Shown one piece after another: positions 22,463 through 45,420 of a stretch of DNA of 45,420 nt. Source of the DNA: Candidatus Thalassarchaeaceae archaeon (GTDB lineage Archaea; Thermoplasmatota; Poseidoniia; Poseidoniales; Thalassarchaeaceae); assembly GCA_030747395.1 (NCBI GenBank), contig JASLKT010000006.1, forward strand, positions 1-45,420. Reading direction: 5' to 3'. The position numbers and the translations under genes were made by a program. Numbering within the stretch: position 1 is the stretch's first letter; the number at the start of each line of letters is the position of its first letter. The notes beneath the pieces were generated by a model, which was given only the letters and a program-made list of their open reading frames with translations, ran no database searches and was not told the DNA's origin.

Positions 22463-23263
22463 ATGTCGATGGAGATTACGCACCTTGGTTCGGGTAGCCG
22501 CGGCAACGCGACTCTGCTCCAAACCGAGGAGTCGAAAGTGCTCATTGATTGCGGATTTAGTGGCCGCCAAATTGAACGCCGTTTGGCCCGAATTGGAGTT
22601 GAACCAACCTCAATTGATTCTATTCTACTCAGCCACCACCACTCCGATCACGTTCAGGGAGCTGAAATTTTCAGTAGACGACATGGTGCTAAATTGTTCG
22701 CCAACTTCACAACTTGTGCACATTTGGGTCTTGACCCTGTCAATCAGTGTCGTATCTTTGAAGCACTGGAGCGTGTCCAAGTAACGACTGATTTGTCCGT
22801 ACTACCAGTGCCCATCCCGCATGATCGTGCAGATAATGTTGGATTCATCATACACTCAGGTTCAACTGAACGTGCTGCAGTGGTCACAGATCTCGGTGAA
22901 CCAACCGATGAATTAATTCGTCATCTCAAGGGTTGTGCACACATCTCAATCGAGTCAAATTATGATGCGAAACGGTTGGCGTTGGGACCCTACCCTGCAA
23001 ACCTCAAAGCGCGCATTTCAGGACGCGGGGGGCACCTCTCAAATCAGCAGACTGCGGAATTGTTAGCTGAAATATTGAGTCCACAAACTAGGAGTGTCGT
23101 TTTGTGCCATCTTTCAGAAAAAAACAACGCCCCCCATCTGGCTGAGAGCGAGACCTTGTTCAGAGTTGAAAATTGGTCTGGTGATTTGCGGATTTCAACC
23201 CAAGATGGACCGGAATTCAGCCACTGGTTGGGTCAGGCCGAAGCGGAGATTCTGACACGCTGA
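22463..23263 (+). CDS. WalJ/YycJ-like metallo-beta-lactamase-fold hydrolase
   Basis: 266 aa from ATG 22463 (ATG 22469 is a possible alternative). The start ITHLGSGSRGNATLL...VLIDCGFSGRQIERRL is the signature of the YycJ/WalJ family. The metal site HHHSDH (HxHxDH pattern) is at residues 58-63, with further ligands expected in IPHDRAD, TDLGEP and the family-typical CHLSEKNNAPHLAE near residue 214. Bacterial WalJ proteins are linked to DNA repair or exonuclease activity and the WalKR stress response; the archaeal role is not established. Length is normal. The family is mostly bacterial, so transfer into this lineage is possible. It lies directly upstream of the pilin-like operon, separated by a hairpin. 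Confidence 0.88.
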   Translation: MSMEITHLGSGSRGNATLLQTEESKVLIDCGFSGRQIERRLARIGVEPTSIDSILLSHHHSDHVQGAEIFSRRHGAKLFANFTTCAHLGLDPVNQCRIFEALERVQVTTDLSVLPVPIPHDRADNVGFIIHSGSTERAAVVTDLGEPTDELIRHLKGCAHISIESNYDAKRLALGPYPANLKARISGRGGHLSNQQTAELLAEILSPQTRSVVLCHLSEKNNAPHLAESETLFRVENWSGDLRISTQDGPEFSHWLGQAEAEILTR

Positions 23264-26671: not shown

Positions 26672-27141
26672 TGACACGGAAATTTGTCGATGATGATTCA
26701 GCGGCAGCCACAGAAATTGGTTATGTGTTCACTTTTCTTCTTGGACTCATGTTCCTCTCATCCTTTTCCATTTGGGTGTGGGGATTGGAAGTTTCAACTC
26801 AAGACAGATGGACCGAAGAAGCGCTGGAAGAAAATCTCCTTGCCGTCAGTGCTGCTGTTGAGAGAGCCGATGAGGCTGCACGAATGGATGGAGATGCCCG
26901 CTATGCAGAACCCGTAGAACTGTACCTTTCATCTGCCACAGGATTAAATCTTGAAATGTGGTTGACAGATGATGCTGTTCATTTATCTGATGGAGAGGAA
27001 ATGTATCGAACAAGCCAGCCAATTTCAGGTGCTGCTGCCACCACACACTCAGGTATTGTCAAACTCATAGGAGTCGAAACGATCTGGGTTGTTTTGGATT
27101 CTGGAAATGTGACCATACAAGTTGAACAGCCAGGATTCTAA
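26671..27141 (+). CDS. Small pilin-like protein (third gene of operon)
   Basis: 156 aa from ATG 26671, whose first base is the last base of the previous stop (TAATG). The N-terminus VDDDSAAATEIGYVFTFLLGLMFLSSFSIWVWGLE again has an acidic leader, a small-residue junction and one hydrophobic helix, like haloarchaeal pilin-like proteins found in similar clusters. A helical segment (WTEEALEENLLAVSAAVERADEAARM) and a beta-rich head of about 80 residues follow. It is the right size for a filament subunit and may be the main building block, with the two larger upstream proteins as minor subunits; this is inference. Its stop overlaps the stop of the convergent STAND gene by 3 bases (4-base shared region including both stops). 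Confidence 0.78.
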   Translation: MTRKFVDDDSAAATEIGYVFTFLLGLMFLSSFSIWVWGLEVSTQDRWTEEALEENLLAVSAAVERADEAARMDGDARYAEPVELYLSSATGLNLEMWLTDDAVHLSDGEEMYRTSQPISGAAATTHSGIVKLIGVETIWVVLDSGNVTIQVEQPGF

Positions 27142-29666
27142 TGATTGCCCATGATGGCACGGTGCATCTGCCCCTGTACTTCTCGCATACGTGCCCCAGC
27201 ACCCAATTCACGGAAAACTGTCAGCGCGCGTTGCAGGTAATTCATACGCTCTGACTTTTCAGGTGCTGCCTCGCCCAAACGTGCCAGCAATTCGCCAATT
27301 AATGGTCGGAAATCATTGGCCTCGGCCATGGCTAAACCATCGAGATAGTGTTCGACCGCCTCCTCTGAGCGGCCAGCATCTGAAAGGGCCTCTCCAAGGA
27401 GAATGGTGATATCAACTGCACTTCTTTGATCTGTTTCTTCGGCCATTTGTTCTAGGGCCTCCGAATAATGGTGAAGGGCAAGATCGGGGTCGCCAGTTCG
27501 GGCATAAAATCGCCCGAGTACTGCTCGCGAACGGGCGTGGAGGCCAATGTGTTCTGAATTCTCTGTCTCCTCATAAGAGGTCAATGCATGCTCGCGCGCG
27601 CGATCAATTTCGCCCATTTCAAGCAAGGCTGAGGCCAACTTGATGCGAACCTCGACCAATTCAGGATCATCTTCTGCTTCGAGTAATTCCTCAACGTTGC
27701 CATAGACTTCGAGTGCCCGCTTCGTATCCTTTCGATGTCGGAAGATGTAACCCATGTTGGCGTATGTTCGTGCAGCCCCCTTTGCATCACCAGTGTCGAT
27801 GAACAATTGTAGGGCCTGACTATGTAGTTCCAAGGCAGAATCAGGTTCACCTCGTTGAACGGCTAAATCTGCTTTACTCGATAGTAATCGCCCCTGTATT
27901 TCAAGTGATACATCAGGTGGATTCAACACTAATGGAAGGGCGGTTTCGTATTCAGATTCAGCATCATCCCAGCGACCTTGCAAAGATAGAATGTCACCAC
28001 GCATCTCAAGAATCATGGCCCATGTTTGTGTTTTGAATTGAGTTTCATCAAGTCCCAAAAGGAGTGGGAGCAATTCCATGTGCCCACTCCGAATCAATGA
28101 GCGCCCAGATTTCTCAAGCACATCGCCAAGAGAATCGGTATCACCCGAATTCACGAGATGGTAGATGTATTCCAACTGCTGTTCAGGCGAATCTGGCCGC
28201 TTACGATACCAAGCACATGCCGCTGCATGCAATGCCGTAGCAATCACTGAATCAAATGTCCTGAGCAAGAATTCCCTCACCAGATCGTGCACATCGTAAT
28301 TTTCACTATCGACTTGCCTTGCCAATCCTTTCTCCACCAAGTCACCAAGCAAATCTGTTTCAATTTCATGATTTGAAAGTGCTTCTAGGGGCATTGGTTC
28401 TCGATAGATGGCGATGGCTCCAAGGACACGCTTCTCAGCCCCGGATAAGCGACTGAAAATTTCCTCGTCGACGAAGGTTTCCAGTGTGTCGTGGAAGGTC
28501 GAACCCACAGAACCTCGATTGATGAGTTGCAAAATCAAAGGATGGCCTCGTGAAAGGGTGTAAATGTGGAGGAAAGCAGACATATCGATATCAGGCATTG
28601 TCGTTAACAGATTTCGACTCGCAGATTGATCCAATCCCTCCAATGGTAAAACCAGTGCAGAAATGTTACCTTCAGCATCCTTCAATGGAACGACTGCACG
28701 GAATGATCGACTGAACATCACGAGACCACATTCCTGAACATCGCCCATTCGTTGAGATAACCCTCGAATGATAGCGAATAGGGCATCGTCGTTCACTTTG
28801 TGTAAATCATCAATCACAATGAGTGATGGAATTTCTTCAAGAGCTCCAACAATTAAATTCACTGCGACAGATGGTTGAGGGACCGCTGTAGCATGGATAT
28901 AATCGGATAAATCATCATCGCCAATGGTGGACAGCCATTCAGCACACGCCTCAAGGAAAGCGCGACTCCCCTCCCAATCTTGACAACGGTGATAGAGTAA
29001 ATTCCGACGATGTGTGTATTGTTCAATGACCTTGCCGGCAAGTGCGGTTTTACCTATTCCAGCAATCCCAGGGACGAGTAAACACGATGAACGTGCATCG
29101 AGAAGTGCGCAGACATTTTCAAGTTCAGTTTCTCGGCCAAAGAAAGCCCGAGTACGTGGCAGATCACCCAATGAGGTCACAAGTTGTTTTTCGACGTGTT
29201 TATCCAAATCTCGCTGAATCAATTCCTCATTGAGTGTGCGCAAATCCAACATGCCGTTGTCATCCATGTAACGGAGAACGTCGACTGCCCGAAGTGGGAA
29301 GGTTGCAATGTCGATTGAACCTGACAATGTGGTCGTGTGTGATGCTCCTTCCTTGTCAACGAGGCGAACGGGATGTTCTGAAAGGCGCTTCCAAGTTTCT
29401 TCTGCTTGAACCATGCCAGAATCGGTCAAAAAATACGCCTTGCGTTTTCGACTCACACCGGCAACATGCGCTTGACGCTCAATCAAATGATTTGCATCTT
29501 TCAAACCAGCAATTGCACGAGGGACATTACTACGCGCAATTGCAACTGCATTTGCGATTCCCATCTGTGAAAGAGCGAAAGGGACCTCGACGGAATCAGT
29601 GTAATCTGTATAATCGCGTAGATGGAGCATAATTCGCTCTTGAACACCAGGTCGGGGATGACTCAT
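27138..29666 (-). CDS. STAND ATPase regulator with winged helix and TPR repeats
   Basis: 842 aa from ATG 29666 (MSHPRPGVQERIMLHL), preceded by a GGAGTGGG ribosome site; upstream in-frame starts add a non-conserved leader. Residues 1 to about 95 look like a winged-helix DNA-binding domain (ARSNVPRAIAGLKDANHLIERQAHVAGVSRKRKAYFLTDSG). A FFGRETELENV lead-in is followed by the P-loop GIAGIGKT (200-207) and Walker B LIVIDD (282-287), the NB-ARC/MalT-like STAND core. From about residue 530 to the end there are many TPR-type helix pairs (for example AARTYANMGYIFRHRKDTKRALEVYGNVEELL). Such proteins act as signal-gated switches, here probably at transcription. Ligand and targets are unknown. The neighbouring pilin-like operon is a candidate target by position only. 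Confidence 0.88.
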   Translation of the reverse strand: MSHPRPGVQERIMLHLRDYTDYTDSVEVPFALSQMGIANAVAIARSNVPRAIAGLKDANHLIERQAHVAGVSRKRKAYFLTDSGMVQAEETWKRLSEHPVRLVDKEGASHTTTLSGSIDIATFPLRAVDVLRYMDDNGMLDLRTLNEELIQRDLDKHVEKQLVTSLGDLPRTRAFFGRETELENVCALLDARSSCLLVPGIAGIGKTALAGKVIEQYTHRRNLLYHRCQDWEGSRAFLEACAEWLSTIGDDDLSDYIHATAVPQPSVAVNLIVGALEEIPSLIVIDDLHKVNDDALFAIIRGLSQRMGDVQECGLVMFSRSFRAVVPLKDAEGNISALVLPLEGLDQSASRNLLTTMPDIDMSAFLHIYTLSRGHPLILQLINRGSVGSTFHDTLETFVDEEIFSRLSGAEKRVLGAIAIYREPMPLEALSNHEIETDLLGDLVEKGLARQVDSENYDVHDLVREFLLRTFDSVIATALHAAACAWYRKRPDSPEQQLEYIYHLVNSGDTDSLGDVLEKSGRSLIRSGHMELLPLLLGLDETQFKTQTWAMILEMRGDILSLQGRWDDAESEYETALPLVLNPPDVSLEIQGRLLSSKADLAVQRGEPDSALELHSQALQLFIDTGDAKGAARTYANMGYIFRHRKDTKRALEVYGNVEELLEAEDDPELVEVRIKLASALLEMGEIDRAREHALTSYEETENSEHIGLHARSRAVLGRFYARTGDPDLALHHYSEALEQMAEETDQRSAVDITILLGEALSDAGRSEEAVEHYLDGLAMAEANDFRPLIGELLARLGEAAPEKSERMNYLQRALTVFRELGAGARMREVQGQMHRAIMGNH

Positions 29667-29762
29667 ATTGCCCACTCCATTGTAATCTTGACTTATCCCC
29701 TTTTGATAGTGACGCGAGCACACCCCACCTGACCCAATGATCAAGTCGGGTGTATTCTCGCA

Positions 29763-32700
29763 TCACTGATTGTCCGGAATCCACTTGTTTTGCTCCGCGT
29801 CCCACTTCCAACCTGGATAACCAGAGACGGCAGCTGGTGCGGCTGCGGCCACAGGTTCGGCAGTGGTTGCCGCCACAGGTTCAGCAGCTTCCTGTTGGTT
29901 CTGCTTCCCCCATGCATAAGGGTCCACTTCTTCTGTGGCAACCGCTTCAAGATCGTCCTCATACTCATCTTCAAATTCAACGAAGAAGAAGACGAATACT
30001 GCACCCAGTACTCCAAGGACAATCAGTGCACCAACCGCCATCAGAATCAACATGAAAATGCCTGTGCCTTCATCGGCACCGCCTTCAACGGTAATTTGTG
30101 AATCAGAATTCAATGGCTGTCCGATATTACCGTATTCAAAGACAATTGTATTGTCGCCTTTTTCTAGGCGATTTGCACCAATTTCCATCGTCCATGTTCC
30201 ATCTTCTCCAACCGCAGTGCTTCCAAGCCGTAGGCCAGCTGAGGTTTCTCCAATGACATTGACAGTCGGTCGTCCGTGACCACTGTAAACCAAAATGTCT
30301 GTCTTTCCAATTTCACCAGGGCAGCCTGCAACGAAGTTGCCATCTACCATGAGACCTGCACATTCTGAAGTAAAGGATACACCCACCACATCGAAATCAA
30401 TGGGGTCAGAGGAAATGGTACTTCCTGCAGTGTCGATTACTTGGAAAATGACACTCTCCAAGGACCAATCTGCCATATCAGGGGCGTAAAACGACATTGA
30501 TAATGGGTTGTAATTGGCGATTCCTGAACTTCCGATGGTGATGACTTCCGCATGGTAATCATCCTCATACTTGTCCTGCTGATCCAGCACGTAGTAAGTC
30601 AAACTGTCACCCATATCAACGTCTGAGAAATATTGGGTGAGGTCAATCGAATATCCTGAACCACATCGGTTTTGTGATGAGCCTGTTTCTTCACAGAAAA
30701 TTGTTACCGAATCGGGCCATGCTGTTGAATTGAATGCGGGCCGGGTGTTGTCCTGATTAGGGGGGTTGTCAATGATAATTTCAATCGATGCAGCCTCGCT
30801 GTATTCGAACCCATCAAAGGAGCGAACTTCAACGATGTAGTGATAATTGTGAACCAATGATGTCGTGTCCCATGTTGTTGCCCATCCACCGTTTGCCATG
30901 ATATCTGTGACCAATGAATGTGAACCCTCGGGCATTTCAAGGAAACCTGCTTGGGGATCTTTGATGACAATTTCGACCTTCGTTACAGTGCCATCCGTAT
31001 CACGCGCGACACCACTCAGAAGTGTATCCTCGCTGGCAGTAATCGTCTGCAAATCGAATGGTGTTAGCAGTTGAACCACGGGGATTGCATTGTCGTTGTC
31101 GACCTCGAGGGTCAACTCAACTGGCGTGCATTCGTCAGGACTGTTTGTGCAGAATGCGGAATCACTTGCCCAAACCTTGACTGTGTATGTCCCAGAAGGT
31201 AGGTGTCCAACAGTCCAATCAGCCGACCAAGCAGTCCCACCTGGTTTGTCAAACAAATTGTAGTAATTATTCGGACCATCAACTTCGAACCAAATTCGCT
31301 GGATATCACTACCGAAAATTCCACTGTACGCATCGGAAGCCCGACCTGTGAAATGCACGATTCCATCATCGATGTTGGTGCCGGAAGCAGGACCATCAAC
31401 CCAGACGATTGGTGGTTCCGTGTTCAGTTTGATGGTTCTCGTGATAATTTGAGATTCGGTCACACCATCAAATGCACGGAATTCGAAGGTGTAATCTCCT
31501 TCGGGTTGATCACTCATATCGAATTCGAAGTACCAGTGACTGAATGGATGGTTGTTGTATGTGACTTCGCCGTCAGAATTGCTGTCATCGACGGCCAATC
31601 TCATGTCAATCCAATCGCTTGTAAAGGGGTCCTTGACCTGAACTTGTTCAACAGCACCCTGCTGGTCCCAACGAGCCAATTCATCTGAAGCGTAGATTCC
31701 AGCCCATTGGCCATCGTGAGATGTTCCTGTGAAGTTAACAGAACGCTTGAAGGAATGCCCGTCGTTTTGGCTGACGGTCAAACTGGGTGCAAGGTTTTCC
31801 AGAGAGACAATTTCAGTCAGTACGCCGGTTTGACTGGTCATCGTGAGACTGTATTTCTTGTATCCCTTGCCAAACTTGTAGGCGGACACGTAGTAAAGGG
31901 ACAATTCTCGGCTGTTTGGGCCTGCTTGACAATCAGGGTCATCGGCATCGTAGATGAGATCGCCATCGTTATCCATACCATCACTGCATGAATTCTCTCC
32001 TTCATCATCCGCATAGCGGTCAGGATTGATGCCACCAGGACCTCCACCCGTCATATCGAGATGGAAATCACTCGCGAGAGACACTTCAGGAGTCCAACCT
32101 TGACTGTCTGTAGTTACACTGTACAAGTCTTCACCATGGCTATCTTCAATCAATACGGTAGAGCCACCGACACGAACACCTTCAACGATGGTGCGGAACT
32201 TGACAATCTCAGCCTTTCGAATTTGAACGGCCCACTTAATTGGAGAGGTGTCAATGTAGATGTTCGATGTATCTAATCCTGTCAGATTTGAATAAGTGAA
32301 TACGGTGGAATTGTTGGTCATTTCCAGAGCCAACGGGAAATTTTGTGGCGGCCATACACTGGAGGTAGGCACTAGCACTTGCGTTTCCCAATTGGTCCAT
32401 GCAGCCGCTTCAACGTCAGGCCATGCGAGGTTCACGGGGTTGCTCGTATTTGCCGCTTGGCTGGGAATTGGAATATTCTCGGATTGAACTGTGACACTGC
32501 TCTTTGTCACATTGTATGTCTGACCGACACCTGACCAAGTGTTCCTTGAGAAGAATGCGAGTGTTCCAAACTGTGGATCACCCGCATAACCTGTGTTGTG
32601 GTGCTTGATACTGGCACCTGTTCCGGTTGAATTGATGGTGTTATCTCGAACGTCGAGGATTGCCCCCACAGCCCGAATGCCATCACCCTCGCCTCCAATG

Positions 32701-34130
32701 CTGATGTCATTGTTGAGCAAGGTCAATGATGACCGGAAGGCATGAACGGCTGGACAGGGGAAATCGCCACCCCATGATTTCTGACCGGTACACTCGCCAC
32801 CACTACTATCAATGATGGAATTGGCAACATACATTCGATTTTCAGACGGAGCTGGCACTGACCAACCACTGTCTCCAAAGTGATATTCACCCGCGATGAT
32901 GGGCTCTTTGGCGGTGTCTTCGATGGTTACATTCTCTACACGCACGTCACTCTCACCGATTGACCAAATGCCGTTCCATCCACCAATAGGACCGATCTTA
33001 CCGCCATTGATATTCACTTGGCTCTTGGAAATTTGCACTCCTGAACCATCAGATGCGCCATCGATGTCGTTGTTGTTGAAATCCACCCATGCAAAGTTGA
33101 ATGCTGTCAGTGGACTCTTTTCGTCAGTTGTAATTTTGTTATTTGCAACAGTCAACTTGTAAGCGACATTGTTTCCAGATGTCTTCTTGCTGTTGACGTC
33201 GATGCCGTTGCAAGTTGTATCTATCGTAGATGAGGTGACTGTGCCTGCTGAATCGTCTAGCCGAATCCCATAATCGCCACTGGCAATAACTGCATTTTGG
33301 ATATCCACGTAGGACTCCTCCACCCAAAGTACGTGACGGCCATCGTCATTTTGACCGCAACCGTTGGCGGTGCCAGTGAACACTGGAGCGATAATTGATA
33401 ACGGCTGAATGGCACTGCCTGCACCATAGGCCTGTATTGCCGAACCGACGAGTGATGTTTCGTCATCACCCACAGTAAATTCCCCACCAACGATATCGGG
33501 GCGGGCTAAGTCGAGGATTAGCAGACTTGTTGTATTGACACCTTCAAATTTCAAACCGGTCATTGTCGGGCTTGCACCCTCAGCGACTAGAGCACCGTAA
33601 CGAACTTCAGATATTTCTGAAACCCACCTTGGCATTCCGTATGCGTTGGTAATCGAAACATGGTTCAATTTGGTGGCACCGATGTCCACAGTACTACGAA
33701 GAAGAATACCTTCGTTACAAGAGGGGTCCCGATTGTAGTGATTGCCGCTGAAAATCCCGTAACAACTTCCAATCGCTGATGCATTGGCTGGATCTTGCCA
33801 ATTGAATGTGATTCTGGAACTATTGCTAGCCATACCATTGGCACCACAAGCAACATCGCCGGCACACAGTCCACCACGGACGTCTAGATAGGTTCCATTC
33901 GGCATGGTGACGGTTGTTCCAGGTTGTACAATCAGATTGGCGCCCGTCGCAACGATGACGCTACCCGTCAACGTGTGGGAACCAGACCAAACCTCAGTAC
34001 CTGAAATCGTTCCATTCGATGTCTCGTTCGTTGCTAGGGCTGTTGGCATTAGACCAACGAGTCCTATCATGACGCTGGTGAGCATCAAGAACGATAATAG
34101 CAAACTCTTGTTTCGATGTGTCTCTTCCAT
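29763..34130 (-). CDS. Giant beta-helix surface protein with C-terminal membrane anchor
   Basis: 1,455 aa from ATG 34130 (MEETHRNKSLLLSFLMLTSVMIGLVGLMPTALA, signal peptide). A GGAGTGAT ribosome site 4 bases upstream decides against the GTG at 34139. Residues of about 45-560 form a right-handed beta-helix/pectate-lyase-like repeat region (for example NVTIEDTAKEPIIAGEYHF, LLNNDISIGGEGDGIRAVGAILDVRDNTIN). A metal-binding CSDGMDNDGDLIYDADDPDC motif is at about residue 710, then several Ig/cadherin-like domains (EPPIVWVDGPASGTNIDDGIVHFTGRASD and a similar later one). One membrane helix (GIFMLILMAVGALIVLGVLGAVFVFFF) comes near residue 1360. The cytosolic tail is acidic, then Ala/Pro/Val-rich, and ends with a tryptophan motif GYPGWKWDAEQNKWIPDNQ. 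Probably a cell-surface adhesin or polysaccharide-binding protein; no catalytic residues were identified. Confidence 0.88.
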   Translation of the reverse strand: MEETHRNKSLLLSFLMLTSVMIGLVGLMPTALATNETSNGTISGTEVWSGSHTLTGSVIVATGANLIVQPGTTVTMPNGTYLDVRGGLCAGDVACGANGMASNSSRITFNWQDPANASAIGSCYGIFSGNHYNRDPSCNEGILLRSTVDIGATKLNHVSITNAYGMPRWVSEISEVRYGALVAEGASPTMTGLKFEGVNTTSLLILDLARPDIVGGEFTVGDDETSLVGSAIQAYGAGSAIQPLSIIAPVFTGTANGCGQNDDGRHVLWVEESYVDIQNAVIASGDYGIRLDDSAGTVTSSTIDTTCNGIDVNSKKTSGNNVAYKLTVANNKITTDEKSPLTAFNFAWVDFNNNDIDGASDGSGVQISKSQVNINGGKIGPIGGWNGIWSIGESDVRVENVTIEDTAKEPIIAGEYHFGDSGWSVPAPSENRMYVANSIIDSSGGECTGQKSWGGDFPCPAVHAFRSSLTLLNNDISIGGEGDGIRAVGAILDVRDNTINSTGTGASIKHHNTGYAGDPQFGTLAFFSRNTWSGVGQTYNVTKSSVTVQSENIPIPSQAANTSNPVNLAWPDVEAAAWTNWETQVLVPTSSVWPPQNFPLALEMTNNSTVFTYSNLTGLDTSNIYIDTSPIKWAVQIRKAEIVKFRTIVEGVRVGGSTVLIEDSHGEDLYSVTTDSQGWTPEVSLASDFHLDMTGGGPGGINPDRYADDEGENSCSDGMDNDGDLIYDADDPDCQAGPNSRELSLYYVSAYKFGKGYKKYSLTMTSQTGVLTEIVSLENLAPSLTVSQNDGHSFKRSVNFTGTSHDGQWAGIYASDELARWDQQGAVEQVQVKDPFTSDWIDMRLAVDDSNSDGEVTYNNHPFSHWYFEFDMSDQPEGDYTFEFRAFDGVTESQIITRTIKLNTEPPIVWVDGPASGTNIDDGIVHFTGRASDAYSGIFGSDIQRIWFEVDGPNNYYNLFDKPGGTAWSADWTVGHLPSGTYTVKVWASDSAFCTNSPDECTPVELTLEVDNDNAIPVVQLLTPFDLQTITASEDTLLSGVARDTDGTVTKVEIVIKDPQAGFLEMPEGSHSLVTDIMANGGWATTWDTTSLVHNYHYIVEVRSFDGFEYSEAASIEIIIDNPPNQDNTRPAFNSTAWPDSVTIFCEETGSSQNRCGSGYSIDLTQYFSDVDMGDSLTYYVLDQQDKYEDDYHAEVITIGSSGIANYNPLSMSFYAPDMADWSLESVIFQVIDTAGSTISSDPIDFDVVGVSFTSECAGLMVDGNFVAGCPGEIGKTDILVYSGHGRPTVNVIGETSAGLRLGSTAVGEDGTWTMEIGANRLEKGDNTIVFEYGNIGQPLNSDSQITVEGGADEGTGIFMLILMAVGALIVLGVLGAVFVFFFVEFEDEYEDDLEAVATEEVDPYAWGKQNQQEAAEPVAATTAEPVAAAAPAAVSGYPGWKWDAEQNKWIPDNQ

Positions 34131-34134
34131 GGGT

Positions 34135-34142
34135 ATCACTCC
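34135..34142 (-). promoter_or_regulatory. Ribosome-binding site deciding the start of the beta-helix gene
   Basis: On the minus strand GGAGTGAT ends 4 bases before ATG 34130, close to the archaeal consensus GGAGGTGAT. The competing GTG at 34139 lies inside this site and so is unlikely to be used. Confidence 0.6.
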
Positions 34143-35634: not shown

Positions 35635-38600
35635 TCAGAATGCTTGTGATCCTCGACGTCCACTAAACTTCCAGAACAAACCGATGAGACCAGCAATGAT
35701 GAGGCCTACAACAAGGCCAAGCCAATTGTTTGCCTTGGTCGACACCTCAGGCTGATAGTTAATCTTCATCATCTCCTCAGTCGGCAACGGATTTTCCAGT
35801 TCAAGTCCAGTTGTATTGATTCGCATTGTGTAATCGACTGTTCCAATTTCGTCGACCGGTGCAATATCTATCGTGTATGTTGTTGTTTGATCCATCGGCA
35901 CATCCAATGTTTGAGAACCGACGACATCGCCAGATTCATCGAGGACCTCAACTTGGATATCATAGGCATCTACGTCACCACTGTTCTCTACATTCACGTA
36001 GAACTGATTGGTTTGACCCAATGCAGCAAACCCGCCCTGTGACAAACCAAGTGCGCCGTAATCGTCTTCCACAATCTCAAGGATTGGTAACGCGGTCTTG
36101 ATGTTCAGAGTCACTGTTTCTGAAGTAGTGTTATCCTCACTGGTAATGGTAATCGTAACCGGGAACGGCTCTACATCGCCAAACCAAACTTCGGACACAT
36201 GTATGGTCACCGAATATGCTTGGTTGCTACGCGGACCCAAGTTAGGGATGACGGATGCACCAGTGACACTCCACAAAGGCGTCAAGGCTTCGGGCAACTC
36301 TGAAATCGAGAAACTGTATGTGTCATCTCCATTACCCGAATTCTCAAAGAAGAACGAATATGTTACGTCATTGCCAGCTTGGACCCCGATAATTACGTCG
36401 CCATCTTCATTTTCATTCGGGAGTGGGTCTTCTACTTCCAAGCCATATGACTGCGGTACGAAAATCTTGAGTTCATATTCACTGATTGGCCCGCTATTGG
36501 CGCCTGTCATCTTGACAAGCATTGAATGGCCTTCATCATATGATTCAGCAATACTTTCGTTTGCTGGTGTAACTCGAAGCCGAATATCATCAGACATTGA
36601 CGCATTCAGACCAAATTCATACCCACGAGTGGGTGACCAGCAGTTGGTCAAAATTCCAGCATCCCACTCACCATTGGAGTTTGAATCCTCGAATTCTTCG
36701 CCTAGGTCGTATTCACTGTTGTTGTTAGCATGATTTTCCACATCTGTATCTGTGTAGTCTTCTGGATCCACACACAATGCATCAGACGGAGTGTTGGTTG
36801 GGTTGTCATCTCCATCCCATACCTCTACGGTCCAGTATGATGCATCTCCACCATTCATTTCAACGGTGAGGATATAGGAATCTTGAGCCATATTACCCTC
36901 GTAGTTGACTTGCATGTTGATGTAACCAACTGTGTATTCATCACCATCTTCAGCGTCATTGTTGATGATTGTGAATTCATCACCATCCTCTTCAGACTGC
37001 TGAATGGATGTGTGATTATCGCCAACTGTGAACGATACCGAATGATCTTCAGCACGGTTAAACACAACTTGTTGCTCAGGAGATTCCACACCACCGCCCA
37101 CAACCTCGGCACTCTTTCCACCATTGTAGGTCATCTCAACTCCATATTCAGTGGTTACGAATGTGCCACTGATACTGTAGTCTCCAGCCGGTAGGAGAAG
37201 TGAAATTTCACCATCCATATCGACAGTTTGATTCCAACTATATGCTAAACCGCTTGCGAAGACGAGGTTGTCGCCACTATCGATTAGAGCACTATCGCCG
37301 AGTGTATGTTCAACACCATCGTAATTGTTCCACTTGGTGGTCACGTGTAGGATACTAGCTGTCGAAAGCATGGCATCTGCTTCACCACCTACGGCAACGG
37401 CCGCCTCAACAAGTTCCATTGCAGCAAATTGTCCCTCATCACCATCATAGGTGGCGTAAAGAATCCAATTTCCAGGATCCACATCTGCAGTCCAGGTACC
37501 ATCCCATGAACCGTTATCCAACACCTTGGTGGGTGTCAATTCTGCAAAGGATAGTCCGGACTCTGGAATCAAAGCGAGGGTGATTTCATCAGCAATGATA
37601 CTCCATTCAGAAGGTAGCACGTGAGAAATCTCTCCACCCACGGTGACCATTCCGGCCATCATTTCAATATCAGATGTATTGGCAGTATAATCAACATCCA
37701 TTGACACGGATCCATTGCTGTATCCATCCTTAGTGGCAAGCACGTCATACGTGTCGTTCACTGGAACAAAAATTCTCCATGTGCCCAATATGTCGGATGT
37801 GAGGTCCACTGGTCCAAAGGTTGCGCTGCTAACAGTCACGTTGGCATCTACGATACCTTCAGCATAACTCCATGTATCATCATCGTTGATGTCACGGAAT
37901 AGATTCCCGGCAATCTCAACCCACTTATTCAGTGTTAGATTGGTGTCAGGGTTTCCAGAACCTGAGACAAAACTCATCGTTGTATTGTCTAGAATCCATC
38001 GCATATTTCCATCCGTACGATTCAAACTCAATGTCCAAGAGCCCTGCATCAATGAACTATCGATAACTCCCGATTCATCGCTAGGCCCTAGGGTGAATTC
38101 TCCAAGACCATCGTCGCTGATTGCTGTGACTGTAAAGCCGCTCAACAATTCACCGCTGCCACCCTCAACCAATGTCAGGTTGAACTGAGCAGCTTCAACA
38201 GATTGCCACTCAATATTTGTGCCAGGGGTCGATGAATCAACGCTCAAAGTACCGCGGAAGGTCTGCAATGGATCGTCATTCGTATCATCTCCGTCATCGT
38301 CGATGAAGTCGATAATGTGGACCAGCCAATCAGCCTCAGGTAAATATTCAACAATCGTTCCATTGGCATCTGTATCGATAGTGAATGTTTCACTTCCATC
38401 TTCAGCATTCTCAAAGTACACGGTCCAATTGGCCATTGTACCACCCGATTCGTTTCGTAGCGTAATCGATGTGTGCCATTCAGGTAGGAAGCCCAATTCG
38501 ACTTCTATGCCCTCTGAACCAATTGCGACGTCAATCAAACCACCCGTGTTGGATAGCAATGTGTTGAAATCTGTCGTGTTCTCGTCACGTGCATCCTTTG

Positions 38601-41600
38601 CATCTGTTTCGAAAACCCACTTGCCAACACGTAGTTCAAGTTCAATCGTTCCATTGTCCCAGCAGTTTCGAGTCACGCCCGCATCACAAATCTGCGATGC
38701 GCTGATGTTGATATTCAATGAATCATCAAATGCTGTGTATGGAATCAAACGGAAATCTACAGGTTGAGCTGTGCCGTTGGTAAGGTTCCCATCACTTGAA
38801 TGATCGATGAATGTCGTGATATTCGTGATGATATATGCGGGGTTTGCGATGAGTTGCAGTGTTGCATTGCCTTCAGGGGTTGGTGCATAGGTGAGTGGTT
38901 CAACATTGAGAGCCTCATTGTTAATGCTGAGAGTCCATTCTCTAGTTTCATTGCCACTACCCATCAATACAAAGGCATTGAATCGACCCTGTGAAGTGTC
39001 GACAGGCCATTGCCATGTGACGCCTGTCGAATTATCGTAGGCCTCCAACATGAATGGATAGTCACCAAATCCGGGGACATTTTGGGTGTAGGGATTGCCA
39101 GGCTCATACAGGAATATGTCGCCTGCGGCACCGATGCCGTTCTGCGGATACAACGAATCCTCCTCTCCAGAGAAATCGATTCCATCGCTTGGAACAGTGA
39201 AGTGCTTCCCAACCAGTAAGTTTCCAACCACAACGTGTACGGTCAAGTTCACTTCTGCACCAACTGGAATCTGGAATCCGAACGAACCATTCGCATCTGT
39301 CATTGTGTCTTCAGTAATACTACCGCCCCACTGGATGTTGACCATCTGGTTGTTGTAGGGTTGTGGTTCCTCATTTGGCTTGTCGCTCAAATCATACATG
39401 ACCGAACCGTTGACCCACGCAGATTCAACATATTGCAATACGAGACCCGTGATGTTCTCTTGCAAATCAATTTCTTCATAGAGGATGTATTCCTCATCGA
39501 GGATACCCTCGACAACCCATGTATCGCGAGGCAATTCAATGTTATACGAACCATTGCCGTTGTCGCGTGCATCAATCTCAAACGGAGTAAATTGATTTGA
39601 GAACGAAAGGTTCTGATTCTCAACAGGCTGGTTCTCGTGATCTAACAATAGGAACTCAATGTCAAACATCGGTGGAATCTTATCGATATCATTTGGAGTG
39701 ACATTTCCAGCGGTATCTGGGGTGACCGAAATTGGGGCCGAACGGTATTCATCGAACCCATCCGAATCGCCGTCCATCGTCACAACATATTCGCCTTCAA
39801 GAACAGGTCCAACACCAAAGGTACCATTTTCATCTGTTTCAAACCAACAGGGTGCCCATGCGATTTCACCACAGGGTTCTGTGACATTTGCATCCATGTC
39901 ATCAGAGATAACGAGTTTCAAACGACCGGTGACGATGTCACCTCCGCCTTCATCCATCGACAATGTGCTAGCTGTTCCTTGAATCCAAGTACCAGGTAGT
40001 GATAGTTGGATATTCTTCGCTTCAGGGCTATTCCGAGTAAGTGGGACGATAAGTGGCATCGGCAAAACCGATTCTTCACCGTTGTCGAATAGAACGGCTA
40101 CGTGGTAGGTCCCAGGAATCGCATCCACAAGATGGAATGAACCAGGCTTGACCATGTCACCACTGAATTGCCCCGTTCCTTGGAACGTTCCAGTACCATT
40201 GATGGTACCGTATGTTGACAATGATGTGTCCGATGAATCTACGACAAATGTACCTGAACCAATGATGGTTTCTCTGTACATTGGCGTCGTGAAGAATGAT
40301 GTGCCATTCGAAGTGAAGCGGCCTTCGACCCCTTCAACCAATCCATCGATGAAGAACGTGTCAGTCACGTTTGCATCTTCAAGACAATACGAAGCATCAT
40401 CAGGCATTGAACCGTTCAGACAAGCTTGTGCATCTACATTCTCGATGCTCCCAACAAATATCCCACGGCCCAAGAGATCCCCTGTGCCTGAGTAGGAATG
40501 ATTGTGCATGATACTGCGCGTGTAATTACCTGTGAAATCAGTGGCTGTTACAACACCGGATTCAGTAATCATTGAACCGGGTCCAGTGAAGGTCACCTCA
40601 CCGACAGCGCCTGGTCCATACTCACGTTCGCCTTCGATTTCACCATCTGAAGTCGTGATGTAGTAGGCATCTTGGCGTGTGTCATCCCAAATGTTTGAGA
40701 TGCGGAGATCCATGTTCGCAAGTGGTTCTCCACCGAAATCGGCTTCACCTTGCCATTCGATGGTACCTGTTGCACCGGATGCTGCAACGTTGATATCTAG
40801 ATTGAGAACTGATGCACCGTTCGAATGTCCTTGGTCACCGGTCACATTGATGCTAGATTCTCCCAACCAGGTTGAACCAGATACATTCGCAAGAATGCCA
40901 GTAATCGGATTGATATTTCGGTCATCGTTATCATCTGTGATCAAATCAACAGCCCAACCTTGAGCTTCCTGTTGTTCTGCATTTGCCATTTGATCTCGTG
41001 CAGATACCAGATCAGATTCGCCCATGAATGCAGTCACACGGATGCGGCCGCTTGGCACAGTGAGGCTGTAATGTCCTTCATCATCCGCTTGAGATGTCCC
41101 AATTGGAATCCAATAGGTTCGAGCATCGGTATCTGTAGGATCTTCGCCACTGAATGCGTCACGCTCAATGAGCAACTTGGCGTTCGGCACTGCACCGATT
41201 TCGCCGAGAACGACATCACCCTCTAGGGTTGCACCCGAGTAATACTTGAGGACCTTGACACCAGTATTTGCTAACGAAATAGCCTGTTCATTGTCTTCAT
41301 TTGCATCATACCAGTTTGCCAACACAAAGTGATTCATCATTGCACCAGGCAATGGGAAGGCCCACATCAATGGGGTGTCTGGAGTTCCATACGAATATTG
41401 ACTGAAATGCTGCTTGGGTTGACCATGGCCACGTTCTGGCTCAAGGCCCAATTGTGGAGTTCCGTAGCCAACGTAAGCACGAGCAATCATGGTTTCAAAG
41501 AATGCAGGTTGCTGGTCGACACGAACGTCCACCAATTGAATGACGTCGCCACCACTTCCTGATTGGCCGGCGAGTAAGTCAGCCATGTAAGCCGTTTCAA

Positions 41601-44600
41601 ACTCTGGTCCAGTCATCTCTTGTTCAGGGCGATCGCCACGTTGTGTGATGTACACAGATTCGATGTAGTCCTCTGGATCGAGGCCACTCAGTGTGGTTGG
41701 TGCATAGAAAATTCCCGTTGGGTTTCCGCGATGCATCCCACTCTCAGCATACTGATAACCACCAATTGGATACAATCGATTGTCCACAGCAAAGTATCGA
41801 ATGTCGTTGTTGCGTGTGACCGTTTCACCGGGACCACCGTCGTAAGATGCGACTTCATACTCAAGCGATGTCAAATCATGATACAAATCAACCATCTCAT
41901 CGAGGCTGAACACATGGGTGAGCAAGTCACGAGCAATTGCATATCGAGCATTCTGTCGGTGCAGAGATGTGGAAACATCGTTGAAATCATCGTAAAGGTC
42001 ACTGGTATACCAGTAATCACCGATGATGTAGTGAGATGATTCGCAAGAGAATGCACTCGTGGAATCGTAGTTATCGTCACCAGGTGAATTGCCGTTATCA
42101 TCGATTACATATTCATCATCTGCTGGACAGTTGTCCATCCAATCGACCTTTCCATTTTGATCGAAGTCATAGATGGCCATACCCATGTCAGTATACTCGC
42201 CAATCTGCTCGCGGTCTTCGTAGAGGCGATACAATGTCGATTCAGAACGAGTTCCATCTGCGTTCATGACTGTGCCTTCTGCCAGCATGACATCGTCACC
42301 TGCACCGATGATGGTGAAAGCATGTTCTCGTACACCTTGGCTATCAGACATCGTGTTGACTGAAACCCATTCATCCCATGTCGCACTGGATTGCGTTGCA
42401 GAATTGAAATGTTGCTGCATTGTTTGAGCGAAAGCACGCGTGAACTGTTCATCATCCATTGTTCCTTGATCATCATTGAACTCTTGGCGCATATCGCCCT
42501 CTGCAAGGGTTACGATGAAGAGCGCAATTGTATCTTCCTCGCCACCAGCGAGCAACATGTTACCCGCAGCTGGAATGCCTGACTGGAAGTTGTCTGCTAC
42601 AGTGGGATGTTGACCCTGAGCAAGTGCTTGGAATCCATAATCCCACCATGAAACGAATGCAGGTCGTTCTGAAAACGACTCGTCTGAATCTTGGGCCTGT
42701 AGCCAATCATATGCTTCGTTCCACGAACGGCCGTTGAAACCAGGTCCAAACGTCCCCATGTACCAACATTCACCTTGACAGGTGGGAGTTTCTTCTTCAT
42801 CCATTCCATAGTCTTCGTATGGTGAGCCATCGAAGACCGACCAGCCAAAGAGTTCAGCACGGAGAACATCGGGCATCAAATCATGAATGGCGTCATCCAC
42901 TTGCTTCTCGCCAACTTCACCACGGGGAATACCTGAATCGATTCCATATATCGCATGCTGACTGAATAGCAGAAGCAATACAAGACCAATTGCAGGAACA
43001 CCTGGATGTTTGCGACCTGCGCGATAAGTTGACTGGAACCGCGCGGCAGATCCACTCACACCCATACGTCGCCGTGTCTTTGTGTATTCCTTGGCGCCGC
43101 TAAATCTCCAAAGCCCGACAATTGCTGCTGAACCCATGATGGCCATCACAGGTGTTGCGTTGAACATGAATCGGCCAGCGGACCATGCCATGTATGATGC
43201 CAAGAGAATCCACATGGCCAAAACCATGTGAGTTTGCTTACGGGTGCGGAATCCGCGCCACAGTGAGACGAAACCCATCCATACTGCGAGCATGAAGACG
43301 AGGGGGCCGAAGTTTGCGAACAATTGTCCACGACTCGGTGCCTGTGCCTCAGCAATAGTGCCGAACACCTTGTTCTTGGAGAAGTAGAACCCACCGGTGG
43401 TGAGGACGTCCCATCCATTTGAGATGTCGAGAAGTTGCAAGATATACAGTGTCCCCAAAAGGGCAGTTGTAATCGCAGAACCCATGATGATGACCATCAG
43501 CCATGGCTTGTCTCGGAAGGCCGTAACAATCCAGCCATTGATCACTGTAAATCCGACAATGTAGAACAGTGGCTGGAAACCGCTAGCGTCCCAAATCAGG
43601 TTCAATTGCATGTTGCCGTAGAATGGTAATGGCAACAGGAAGGTTGTGAACATCATCACTGTGATGGCTGCGGTCAACGGCATGCTGTCTCTACGACGCA
43701 GCAAGTTGAGTGCGGTCTGCATGAAGAATGCAGCATAGATGATGGCCAGACCATAGACGAATCCTTTCCATCCGAGTGCAACTGTTGCAAACGAGACACC
43801 AGCCAATAGCGCTTGAGCCATTGCAGCAGGGTGTTGTTTGAATGCAGCCTTGATTCCAGCAACCATGTGCAATGGATTCCAATCAGAATCTTCGAGCAAC
43901 TTGTCACTGCCAATCGAATCGACAGCACAGAGCCAGAAATAAAATCCTAACGACATGAACAGAATCACGAAAGCGTCGTGGTCCGCCAGAGCGAATGTGC
44001 TGTGGCTAACGTGACCAGGCATGAGTGCCATGAGCCAAGCGCCAATTGCACCAGCACCGGTTCCGAAGAATCGCTTGCAGGTTGCAGCAATCGGCAATAC
44101 AGTCAATGCACCGTATACAGCAGGCATTCCAGCAATGGACCACCAAGCTGCATCGTGAACATCGCCTTCAAGGAACGGATCAAGTAGACTGCCGCCCAAA
44201 GCCAATGTCCAACTGAACAAGGGAGGACGAGGGTTGATGGAACCAACCGGATAGGCTCGATCCATATCGATGACGAAATGGCTGTTCTGTGCAAGGATGT
44301 AATCGATGGCTCGCTTCATGTACCATGGGTCAGAACCACCTGTCATGTCCCATTCACCGGTTCCTGCAGCGTTCATTGCAGGAATCACGTTCCACATTAC
44401 ACGGACGACAAATGCTGTCAATAGTGCACTAGCGATGGTAATCCCATACCAATGTTGGCCCCACCACAGACGTGCTTGTCCAGGGTTTCGGCGCTCAGGG
44501 CCACGCATTAGACGGCCAGTGAATCCATAATAAAGAACTCCAGCGTTTAGCCAAAAGAAGATGGCAAACCAAGACAATGTGCCCAAACTTCCGTGAAGGA

Positions 44601-45420
44601 AGGAAAGAGCACCGTCCGAATTTCCAAACACAAACAGTCCCGACTCTTGCCATGCACCGAAGGTGTAGAGGAACCAATTGAGGCCCAAAAACAATCCTAG
44701 TGTGCGCCAATGTTCAGCCCAGCAGAAAGCCACAAACATGGCTATTAGGCCCGTAAATAGGGCCCAGAAGAAGCCAACGTGTTCTGCAAGGAAGATGGAG
44801 TCGGGGTTGTCAAGAGTCGATAGATGCCACAGACTAAACACGTGTGCACCAATCCAAACAGCCAATCCAACATACAACGGGATGTGGTCCTTTTCGACGG
44901 TTTCAGGTAAATCAGCGAACCAAGAACCATGGCCACCTGCTTGTAGGCGACCGCGGCAGGCTAGAGCAATGATGACGCTGGTGAGAATCGAAATGACCCA
45001 CCATGTGAAGAATAGGTAACCAGTAACAGTTCGATCAACGTCGAGGATGTCGTAATAACTGCTGTAAAGAGAACTCTCTCCACCCCATGCATGACCGGCT
45101 GCGGCCACCTGAATCGCATAGACGAATCCAGCGACAACACCGACCACAATCAGTTCTTCTTCGTGGCGCCTTGAGCGATCAAATAGATGAACGCCAATCG
45201 CCATCATGGTGAAGGCTAGGCCTAGTAGAGCTGCACCATCGTAGTAATGCAACATACCGACGGCACCAATCACCAATGCAAATCCGAGGGAGACGAGAGA
45301 GGGGCGTGTTCCAACGGGTTCGAAGATGATACGGGGTGCTTTGCCGAGTAGGCCACCGGCCAATAGCACGGTGGTAATCATCAGCAGTGTGTTCCAATCG
45401 CTTCCATCATAATCGACGGT
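35635..45420 (-). CDS. aglB: AglB/STT3 oligosaccharyltransferase with giant extracellular extension, 5' end beyond the window
   Basis: The enzyme moves a lipid-linked glycan to Asn-x-Ser/Thr outside the membrane. Numbered from the first in-window ATG (45381), motifs are GGSDPWY (348-354, first acidic motif), ADHD (466-469, second), TIAE (675-678, TIxE), AGRFMFN (735-741) and WWDYG (912-916). All are intact. The frame has no stop between 45381 and the window edge, so the true start lies upstream and at least 3,261 codons exist. In front of GGSDPWY lie over 330 residues with about eight membrane helices; usual AglB has about 50. After the normal C-terminal globular part (to about residue 1,450), some 1,800 residues of Ig-like and carboxypeptidase-regulatory-like domains follow. 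A last membrane helix (WLGLVVGLIIAGLIGLFWKF) then precedes GRRGSQAF. Usual AglB is about 800-1,050 aa. Confidence 0.9.
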   Translation of the reverse strand, partial: TVDYDGSDWNTLLMITTVLLAGGLLGKAPRIIFEPVGTRPSLVSLGFALVIGAVGMLHYYDGAALLGLAFTMMAIGVHLFDRSRRHEEELIVVGVVAGFVYAIQVAAAGHAWGGESSLYSSYYDILDVDRTVTGYLFFTWWVISILTSVIIALACRGRLQAGGHGSWFADLPETVEKDHIPLYVGLAVWIGAHVFSLWHLSTLDNPDSIFLAEHVGFFWALFTGLIAMFVAFCWAEHWRTLGLFLGLNWFLYTFGAWQESGLFVFGNSDGALSFLHGSLGTLSWFAIFFWLNAGVLYYGFTGRLMRGPERRNPGQARLWWGQHWYGITIASALLTAFVVRVMWNVIPAMNAAGTGEWDMTGGSDPWYMKRAIDYILAQNSHFVIDMDRAYPVGSINPRPPLFSWTLALGGSLLDPFLEGDVHDAAWWSIAGMPAVYGALTVLPIAATCKRFFGTGAGAIGAWLMALMPGHVSHSTFALADHDAFVILFMSLGFYFWLCAVDSIGSDKLLEDSDWNPLHMVAGIKAAFKQHPAAMAQALLAGVSFATVALGWKGFVYGLAIIYAAFFMQTALNLLRRRDSMPLTAAITVMMFTTFLLPLPFYGNMQLNLIWDASGFQPLFYIVGFTVINGWIVTAFRDKPWLMVIIMGSAITTALLGTLYILQLLDISNGWDVLTTGGFYFSKNKVFGTIAEAQAPSRGQLFANFGPLVFMLAVWMGFVSLWRGFRTRKQTHMVLAMWILLASYMAWSAGRFMFNATPVMAIMGSAAIVGLWRFSGAKEYTKTRRRMGVSGSAARFQSTYRAGRKHPGVPAIGLVLLLLFSQHAIYGIDSGIPRGEVGEKQVDDAIHDLMPDVLRAELFGWSVFDGSPYEDYGMDEEETPTCQGECWYMGTFGPGFNGRSWNEAYDWLQAQDSDESFSERPAFVSWWDYGFQALAQGQHPTVADNFQSGIPAAGNMLLAGGEEDTIALFIVTLAEGDMRQEFNDDQGTMDDEQFTRAFAQTMQQHFNSATQSSATWDEWVSVNTMSDSQGVREHAFTIIGAGDDVMLAEGTVMNADGTRSESTLYRLYEDREQIGEYTDMGMAIYDFDQNGKVDWMDNCPADDEYVIDDNGNSPGDDNYDSTSAFSCESSHYIIGDYWYTSDLYDDFNDVSTSLHRQNARYAIARDLLTHVFSLDEMVDLYHDLTSLEYEVASYDGGPGETVTRNNDIRYFAVDNRLYPIGGYQYAESGMHRGNPTGIFYAPTTLSGLDPEDYIESVYITQRGDRPEQEMTGPEFETAYMADLLAGQSGSGGDVIQLVDVRVDQQPAFFETMIARAYVGYGTPQLGLEPERGHGQPKQHFSQYSYGTPDTPLMWAFPLPGAMMNHFVLANWYDANEDNEQAISLANTGVKVLKYYSGATLEGDVVLGEIGAVPNAKLLIERDAFSGEDPTDTDARTYWIPIGTSQADDEGHYSLTVPSGRIRVTAFMGESDLVSARDQMANAEQQEAQGWAVDLITDDNDDRNINPITGILANVSGSTWLGESSINVTGDQGHSNGASVLNLDINVAASGATGTIEWQGEADFGGEPLANMDLRISNIWDDTRQDAYYITTSDGEIEGEREYGPGAVGEVTFTGPGSMITESGVVTATDFTGNYTRSIMHNHSYSGTGDLLGRGIFVGSIENVDAQACLNGSMPDDASYCLEDANVTDTFFIDGLVEGVEGRFTSNGTSFFTTPMYRETIIGSGTFVVDSSDTSLSTYGTINGTGTFQGTGQFSGDMVKPGSFHLVDAIPGTYHVAVLFDNGEESVLPMPLIVPLTRNSPEAKNIQLSLPGTWIQGTASTLSMDEGGGDIVTGRLKLVISDDMDANVTEPCGEIAWAPCWFETDENGTFGVGPVLEGEYVVTMDGDSDGFDEYRSAPISVTPDTAGNVTPNDIDKIPPMFDIEFLLLDHENQPVENQNLSFSNQFTPFEIDARDNGNGSYNIELPRDTWVVEGILDEEYILYEEIDLQENITGLVLQYVESAWVNGSVMYDLSDKPNEEPQPYNNQMVNIQWGGSITEDTMTDANGSFGFQIPVGAEVNLTVHVVVGNLLVGKHFTVPSDGIDFSGEEDSLYPQNGIGAAGDIFLYEPGNPYTQNVPGFGDYPFMLEAYDNSTGVTWQWPVDTSQGRFNAFVLMGSGNETREWTLSINNEALNVEPLTYAPTPEGNATLQLIANPAYIITNITTFIDHSSDGNLTNGTAQPVDFRLIPYTAFDDSLNINISASQICDAGVTRNCWDNGTIELELRVGKWVFETDAKDARDENTTDFNTLLSNTGGLIDVAIGSEGIEVELGFLPEWHTSITLRNESGGTMANWTVYFENAEDGSETFTIDTDANGTIVEYLPEADWLVHIIDFIDDDGDDTNDDPLQTFRGTLSVDSSTPGTNIEWQSVEAAQFNLTLVEGGSGELLSGFTVTAISDDGLGEFTLGPSDESGVIDSSLMQGSWTLSLNRTDGNMRWILDNTTMSFVSGSGNPDTNLTLNKWVEIAGNLFRDINDDDTWSYAEGIVDANVTVSSATFGPVDLTSDILGTWRIFVPVNDTYDVLATKDGYSNGSVSMDVDYTANTSDIEMMAGMVTVGGEISHVLPSEWSIIADEITLALIPESGLSFAELTPTKVLDNGSWDGTWTADVDPGNWILYATYDGDEGQFAAMELVEAAVAVGGEADAMLSTASILHVTTKWNNYDGVEHTLGDSALIDSGDNLVFASGLAYSWNQTVDMDGEISLLLPAGDYSISGTFVTTEYGVEMTYNGGKSAEVVGGGVESPEQQVVFNRAEDHSVSFTVGDNHTSIQQSEEDGDEFTIINNDAEDGDEYTVGYINMQVNYEGNMAQDSYILTVEMNGGDASYWTVEVWDGDDNPTNTPSDALCVDPEDYTDTDVENHANNNSEYDLGEEFEDSNSNGEWDAGILTNCWSPTRGYEFGLNASMSDDIRLRVTPANESIAESYDEGHSMLVKMTGANSGPISEYELKIFVPQSYGLEVEDPLPNENEDGDVIIGVQAGNDVTYSFFFENSGNGDDTYSFSISELPEALTPLWSVTGASVIPNLGPRSNQAYSVTIHVSEVWFGDVEPFPVTITITSEDNTTSETVTLNIKTALPILEIVEDDYGALGLSQGGFAALGQTNQFYVNVENSGDVDAYDIQVEVLDESGDVVGSQTLDVPMDQTTTYTIDIAPVDEIGTVDYTMRINTTGLELENPLPTEEMMKINYQPEVSTKANNWLGLVVGLIIAGLIGLFWKFSGRRGSQAF

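Follow-up and report, generated by a model that had tools for sequence, protein, structure and literature searches.

The window, a 45,420-nucleotide stretch of DNA, is an entire contig of a draft genome (1.61 Mb in 150 contigs) of Candidatus Thalassarchaeaceae, a Poseidoniales lineage (Marine Group IIb). On its reverse strand, a frame of 3,248 codons runs uninterrupted and without internal stop from 45381 to 35635 and encodes a giant AglB oligosaccharyltransferase. Because orthologs begin ∼50 residues further N-terminal, with one more helix, and because the frame touches the contig edge, the gene is 5'-truncated at position 45420. From N- to C-terminus, all on the reverse strand, the protein comprises an N-terminal membrane domain cut short by the contig edge (residues 1–312; 44446..45381), an STT3 transmembrane catalytic core (residues 313–860; 42802..44445), an extracellular catalytic C-terminal domain (residues 861–1455; 41017..42801), a Gly/Thr-rich mid domain (residues 1456–1790; 40012..41016), a transthyretin/CarboxypepD_reg-like repeat array rich in sequons (residues 1791–2800; 36982..40011), a membrane-proximal Ig/CARDB-like region (residues 2801–3215; 35737..36981), and a C-terminal transmembrane helix (residues ∼3218–3240; 35662..35730). 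An earlier note on this DNA had described the core, the long tail, and the second membrane anchor, all of which stood, but had overlooked the N-terminal domain, the mid domain, and a conserved subtilase neighbor.

That neighbor, a membrane-tethered subtilase (PF00082; 34264..35625, reverse strand) with an intact Asp/His/Ser triad, lies 9 bases past the AglB stop and is followed by a 1,458-aa Big_7 surface protein with a C-terminal helix (29763..34139, reverse strand), the third gene of a conserved cluster. The subtilase comes directly after AglB in 25 of 26 Poseidoniales loci, in both families, and a large surface protein is third in 21 of the 26. No such subtilase adjoins AglB in the other Thermoplasmatota families examined, so the cluster goes with the Poseidoniales form. 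Elsewhere in the window, an 868-aa AAA plus TPR protein (27138–29744) resembles a STAND regulator, and a metallo-beta-lactamase-fold protein (22463–23263) has a sub-threshold match to the anti-Pycsar protein Apyc1.

The core carries the features of an oligosaccharyltransferase. Pfam STT3 (PF02516) matches residues 349–749 with 55.9 bits (cut-off 24.5), and DHD (467–469), TIAE (675–678), and WWDYG (912–916) are all found. Across 14 diverse orthologs, D345, D467-H468-D469, E678, and WWDYG are invariant, and TIAE and W344 are at least nearly so. The best PDB matches are 3vgp and 3vu0, both archaeal AglB C-terminal domains. Canonical DK and MI patterns of the Ser/Thr pocket gave no match in residues 901–1500; variant forms of these are discernible by structure only (PMC3703281). 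TIGR04154, the archaeosortase A-associated STT3 family, was matched with 169.3 bits, below its cut-off of 450. As judged from sequence, the core identifies the giant protein as a genuine AglB, and its architecture makes it a new variant.

An STT3 match was found in 185 of 194 Poseidoniales genomes, representing 21 of 21 genera, and each genome with a match has exactly one STT3 gene, so that any glycans on the tail would come from this enzyme family itself. Most frames are 3,120–3,320 aa long, the shorter ones being probably for the most part contig-end truncations, and 25 complete orthologs were read. Core and long tail, which the earlier note had placed in one frame, are joined intact in all 21 genera, and the ∼1,800 extra extracellular residues that it had reported agree with the ∼1,790 that we find beyond the STT3/AglB core. 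The C-terminal helix, too, was confirmed, with its hydropathy peak centered at ∼3230 and Lys/Arg residues following. Among orthologs, the catalytic domain (861–1455) is well conserved, and the tail is less conserved in sequence than the core. Every segment for which dN/dS could be computed, the tail included, evolves under purifying selection (∼0.05–0.15), although these are rough values because synonymous sites are near saturation.

Giant AglBs are not confined to this order. Our search, whose scope was the Thermoplasmatota, identified tailed AglBs of 2,081–2,743 aa in other families (L075–L088); those read as far as the C-terminus terminate in a helix with basic residues behind it. Further families have AglB frames of 1,652–2,269 aa. 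The assertion that known AglBs end soon after the first carboxypeptidase-regulatory-like domain therefore fails within the phylum, where AglBs of ∼1,650–2,740 aa occur in many families. Short AglBs (1,157–1,398 aa) form one well-supported clade in the core tree; its members L089–L093 show no C-terminal helix by hydropathy and, unlike Poseidoniales, have 8–15 sequons in the catalytic-domain stretch.

Two of the added domains are peculiar to the order. The N-terminal domain has ∼10 helices in intact relatives, and a low-confidence AlphaFold model (pLDDT 38, from an alignment restricted to same-genus sequences), together with hydropathy, places 10 helices ahead of STT3 helix 1. It has no relative in Pfam or PDB, and matches to its profile (A2) are confined to Poseidoniales and nearly always lie in one frame with STT3; the few that do not are fragments at contig ends. 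The N-terminal membrane extension of L076 and L077 was considered as a homologue, and no homology was detectable. The mid domain, with two conserved Cys and conserved sequons, likewise matched no Pfam or PDB family; its profile (A3) gave strong matches in Poseidoniales AglB frames alone, with a trace in the sister family.

The repeat motif (T/S)DxNGxFxFxxPxGxxxLxV described in the earlier note is real and occurs at positions 1436, 1944, 2032, 2341, 2533, 2628, and 2724. The count in residues 1791–2800 is 7 as compared with 0.5 expected from shuffles, of which 2,000 yielded a maximum of 4; late in the array the spacing is 95–96 residues, and profile self-comparison reveals internal repeats of ∼60–115 residues. 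CarboxypepD_reg (PF13620) was matched at 2508–2564 with 44.1 bits (cut-off 32.3) and in 14 of 14 orthologs. PDB profile searches with tail segments yielded marginal matches only. The beta-sandwich domains proposed for the extension are unsupported in residues 1456–1790, which match no Pfam or PDB family. AlphaFold modeled residues 1440–2600 with a pLDDT of 30 from an alignment holding same-genus sequences only, so the fold of the tail is assigned solely from profiles.

Nearer the membrane, CARDB (PF07705) at 3122–3189 falls under its cut-off of 22.7 in the window protein (15.5 bits) and exceeds it in the relative L083 (28.1 bits), and choice-of-anchor T (NF041740) at 2957–3090 is likewise under its cut-off (25.7 bits; cut-off 70). 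Large frames elsewhere in this genome are also matched by the profile of residues 2801–3215. The window protein showed no match to a PGF-CTERM ending, and its genome encodes archaeosortase A; the tails of L085 and L087 end in a PGF-CTERM-like manner (17.6 bits against a cut-off of 24.5 for L087), with archaeosortase A in both genomes. NOMO1-like_9th was matched by 7 of 14 orthologs, and a relation to NOMO of the BOS complex (PF22902 and related families) was rejected: two orthologs reached only 19–20 bits (cut-off 27), one match overlies the CarboxypepD_reg match, and the signal reflects a shared transthyretin-like fold.

A striking property of the tail is its content of Asn-x-Ser/Thr sites, which number 45 as compared with 20.0 (sd 3.9) in composition shuffles, while the reversed motif occurs 19 times. 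The enrichment is significant in 25 of 26 orthologs, so the many sequons claimed for the extension are confirmed as an excess over composition. Across orthologs, 42% of tail Asn have Ser/Thr at +2, against a background of 18% and 0.13–0.20 at other offsets. The fraction of Asn within sequons is 0.44–0.46 in the repeat array, equally high in the mid domain (0.459), and weaker in the membrane-proximal part (0.27 vs 0.46). Several individual sites persist in 21–25 of 26 orthologs, those at 1512, 1656, and 1728 being present in 23–24. The catalytic domain behaves in the opposite manner, with no sequon in the window copy (3.3 expected) and Ser/Thr at +2 of a fraction of only 0.078 of its Asn across orthologs. 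Selection thus keeps sequons in the tail and keeps them out of the catalytic domain. Orthologs of the downstream surface protein and of the subtilase show no sequon excess (0.161 and 0.123), and in a 423-kb sample of the same genome AglB has the highest sequon score of 183 frames. Second in that sample is a 1,579-aa frame (L113:1134-5870), and a 1,898-aa TSP3-repeat surface protein in the window (16519–22215) has 30 sequons against 14.9 expected. Most giant AglBs of other families also peak in Ser/Thr at +2, up to 0.64; L076 and L077 hold ∼100 sequons each, with Ser/Thr at +2 of 61–64% of tail Asn.

The catalytic site of AglB faces the cell exterior, and its acceptor is Asn-x-Ser/Thr. Considering the gene structure, its conservation, the purifying and sequon selection, and the presence of one enzyme per genome, we propose with moderate confidence that this protein is a doubly anchored, self-glycosylated oligosaccharyltransferase and coat protein in a single chain. 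Its core would transfer lipid-linked oligosaccharide to extracellular Asn-x-Ser/Thr sites. From the catalytic domain, the tail would pass through the lineage-specific domain and then some ten beta repeats before re-entering the membrane by its own helix, so that both ends are anchored. The enzyme could then glycosylate its own tail, on the same or a neighboring molecule (in cis or in trans), and the resulting glycan-covered canopy around the enzyme would form part of the coat and hold the enzyme there. The Poseidoniales enzyme thus probably ranks among its own chief targets and belongs to the cell coat; sequon use and the canopy role are what we infer from the features above. The sequons can alternatively be kept for folding or solubility of the tail, in which case no coat role would be needed.

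The conserved subtilase may instead cut the tail free. We consider it unlikely that the protein is a polyprotein whose tail is glycosylated during export, cut by a protease (in Poseidoniales the adjacent membrane-tethered subtilase), and retained as a separate surface glycoprotein on its own C-terminal helix. Such processing would agree with the position of this triad-intact enzyme, which adjoins the 3' end of AglB in 25 of the 26 loci from both families, and with the second anchor, which a many-helix enzyme does not need for retention, yet which giant AglBs outside Poseidoniales also keep; the C-terminus of L087, moreover, is of the type seen in free surface proteins, although its score is below cut-off. 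However, no cleavage motif was identified, the tail is anchored in other families in which no subtilase adjoins the gene, the target of the subtilase may be the surface protein of the cluster, and the mid domain never occurs alone. We find more doubtful still the most specific form of this idea, in which a single chain comprises both the enzyme and the main coat glycoprotein, glycosylation of the tail takes place in cis during its exit from the membrane, and the clustered subtilase afterwards separates two parts that each stay anchored. In that case, the oligosaccharyltransferase of the wall-poor Thermoplasmatota would itself supply part of their glycan coat.

Only slightly less improbable than that last form is that the tail is a built-in accessory subunit which binds or presents substrates and replaces subunits of the OST1/ribophorin I type, its own glycans being secondary. 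The fixed 1:1 fusion under purifying selection is what one would expect of such a subunit, and the CARDB-like part is of a kind found in protein-binding surface proteins. OST1 and OST3/6 are restricted to eukaryotes, TACK, and Asgard archaea (PMC11417166), so Thermoplasmatota would be without them. Nevertheless, by Pfam the tail resembles neither OST1 nor OST48 in sequence, it is less conserved than the core, and a subunit role leaves the strong sequon enrichment unexplained.

Because several conserved sequons are NGT or NGS inside the TDxNGxF turn, the excess might be a by-product of the Asn-Gly-Thr/Ser turns that the repeat motif contains, with the tail an ordinary adhesin-like extension without glycans. 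We regard this as very improbable and largely refuted, for the +2 Ser/Thr fraction is still 0.41 after removal of all Asn-Gly, and the mid domain is enriched to the same degree as the array. Finally, an artefact of assembly or frame fusing two genes near 41.0 kb, conceivable in a 150-contig draft and given that the single-contig relative G002 looks split, can be dismissed, as the G002 break coincides with a run of N, the frame is intact on contigs up to 618 kb (L056), and related genomes, checked for the gene boundary or misassembly that the earlier note had named as a risk, keep it whole across the order; the giant AglB frame is a real gene.

Our literature search found no description of giant AglBs, and the MGII genome paper makes no mention of glycosylation. 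In a metatranscriptome study, an oligosaccharyltransferase is listed among the genes that had higher abundance during activity of genus O1 (PMC9723583), and a referee of a broad study of this pathway criticized the discarding of over-long sequences (PMC4973528). Most Thermoplasmatales have been reported to be without an S-layer (PMC5155288), and our proposal bears on how a coat is built in cells mostly without one, with the giant AglB as a candidate surface glycoprotein of Poseidoniales. In an abundant order of surface-ocean archaea and in many other families of the phylum, the oligosaccharyltransferase doubles as a very large surface protein rich in sequons; if its tail is used as we propose, enzyme and substrate are one molecule, permitting a direct test of glycosylation in cis.

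In the usual picture, an oligosaccharyltransferase is a catalytic core that acts by itself or together with accessory subunits separate from it. The Poseidoniales protein shares with AglB/STT3 enzymes of the GT-C fold the STT3 core, the diacidic motifs, TIXE, WWDYG, and the extracellular catalytic domain, and adds a ∼10-helix N domain, the mid domain, a sequon-rich tail of ∼1,790 residues, and the C-terminal helix; it is more than three times as long as A. fulgidus AglB-L, which has 868 residues (PMC3703281). The giant AglBs L075–L088 share the long beta-repeat tail and, in most, the sequon peak, but lack any homologue of the Poseidoniales N domain, have no adjacent subtilase, and show the mid domain as a trace at best, and then only within the same class. 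OST1/ribophorin I and other accessory subunits resemble the tail by analogy only, placing extracellular domains and a C-terminal helix beside STT3; in eukaryotes, TACK, and Asgard archaea these subunits are encoded by separate genes, and they show no detected sequence similarity to the Poseidoniales tail. Surface proteins with CarboxypepD_reg, CARDB, or choice-of-anchor T domains are similar in their tail domains and anchored ending, whereas in Poseidoniales such domains are borne by the glycosylating enzyme itself.
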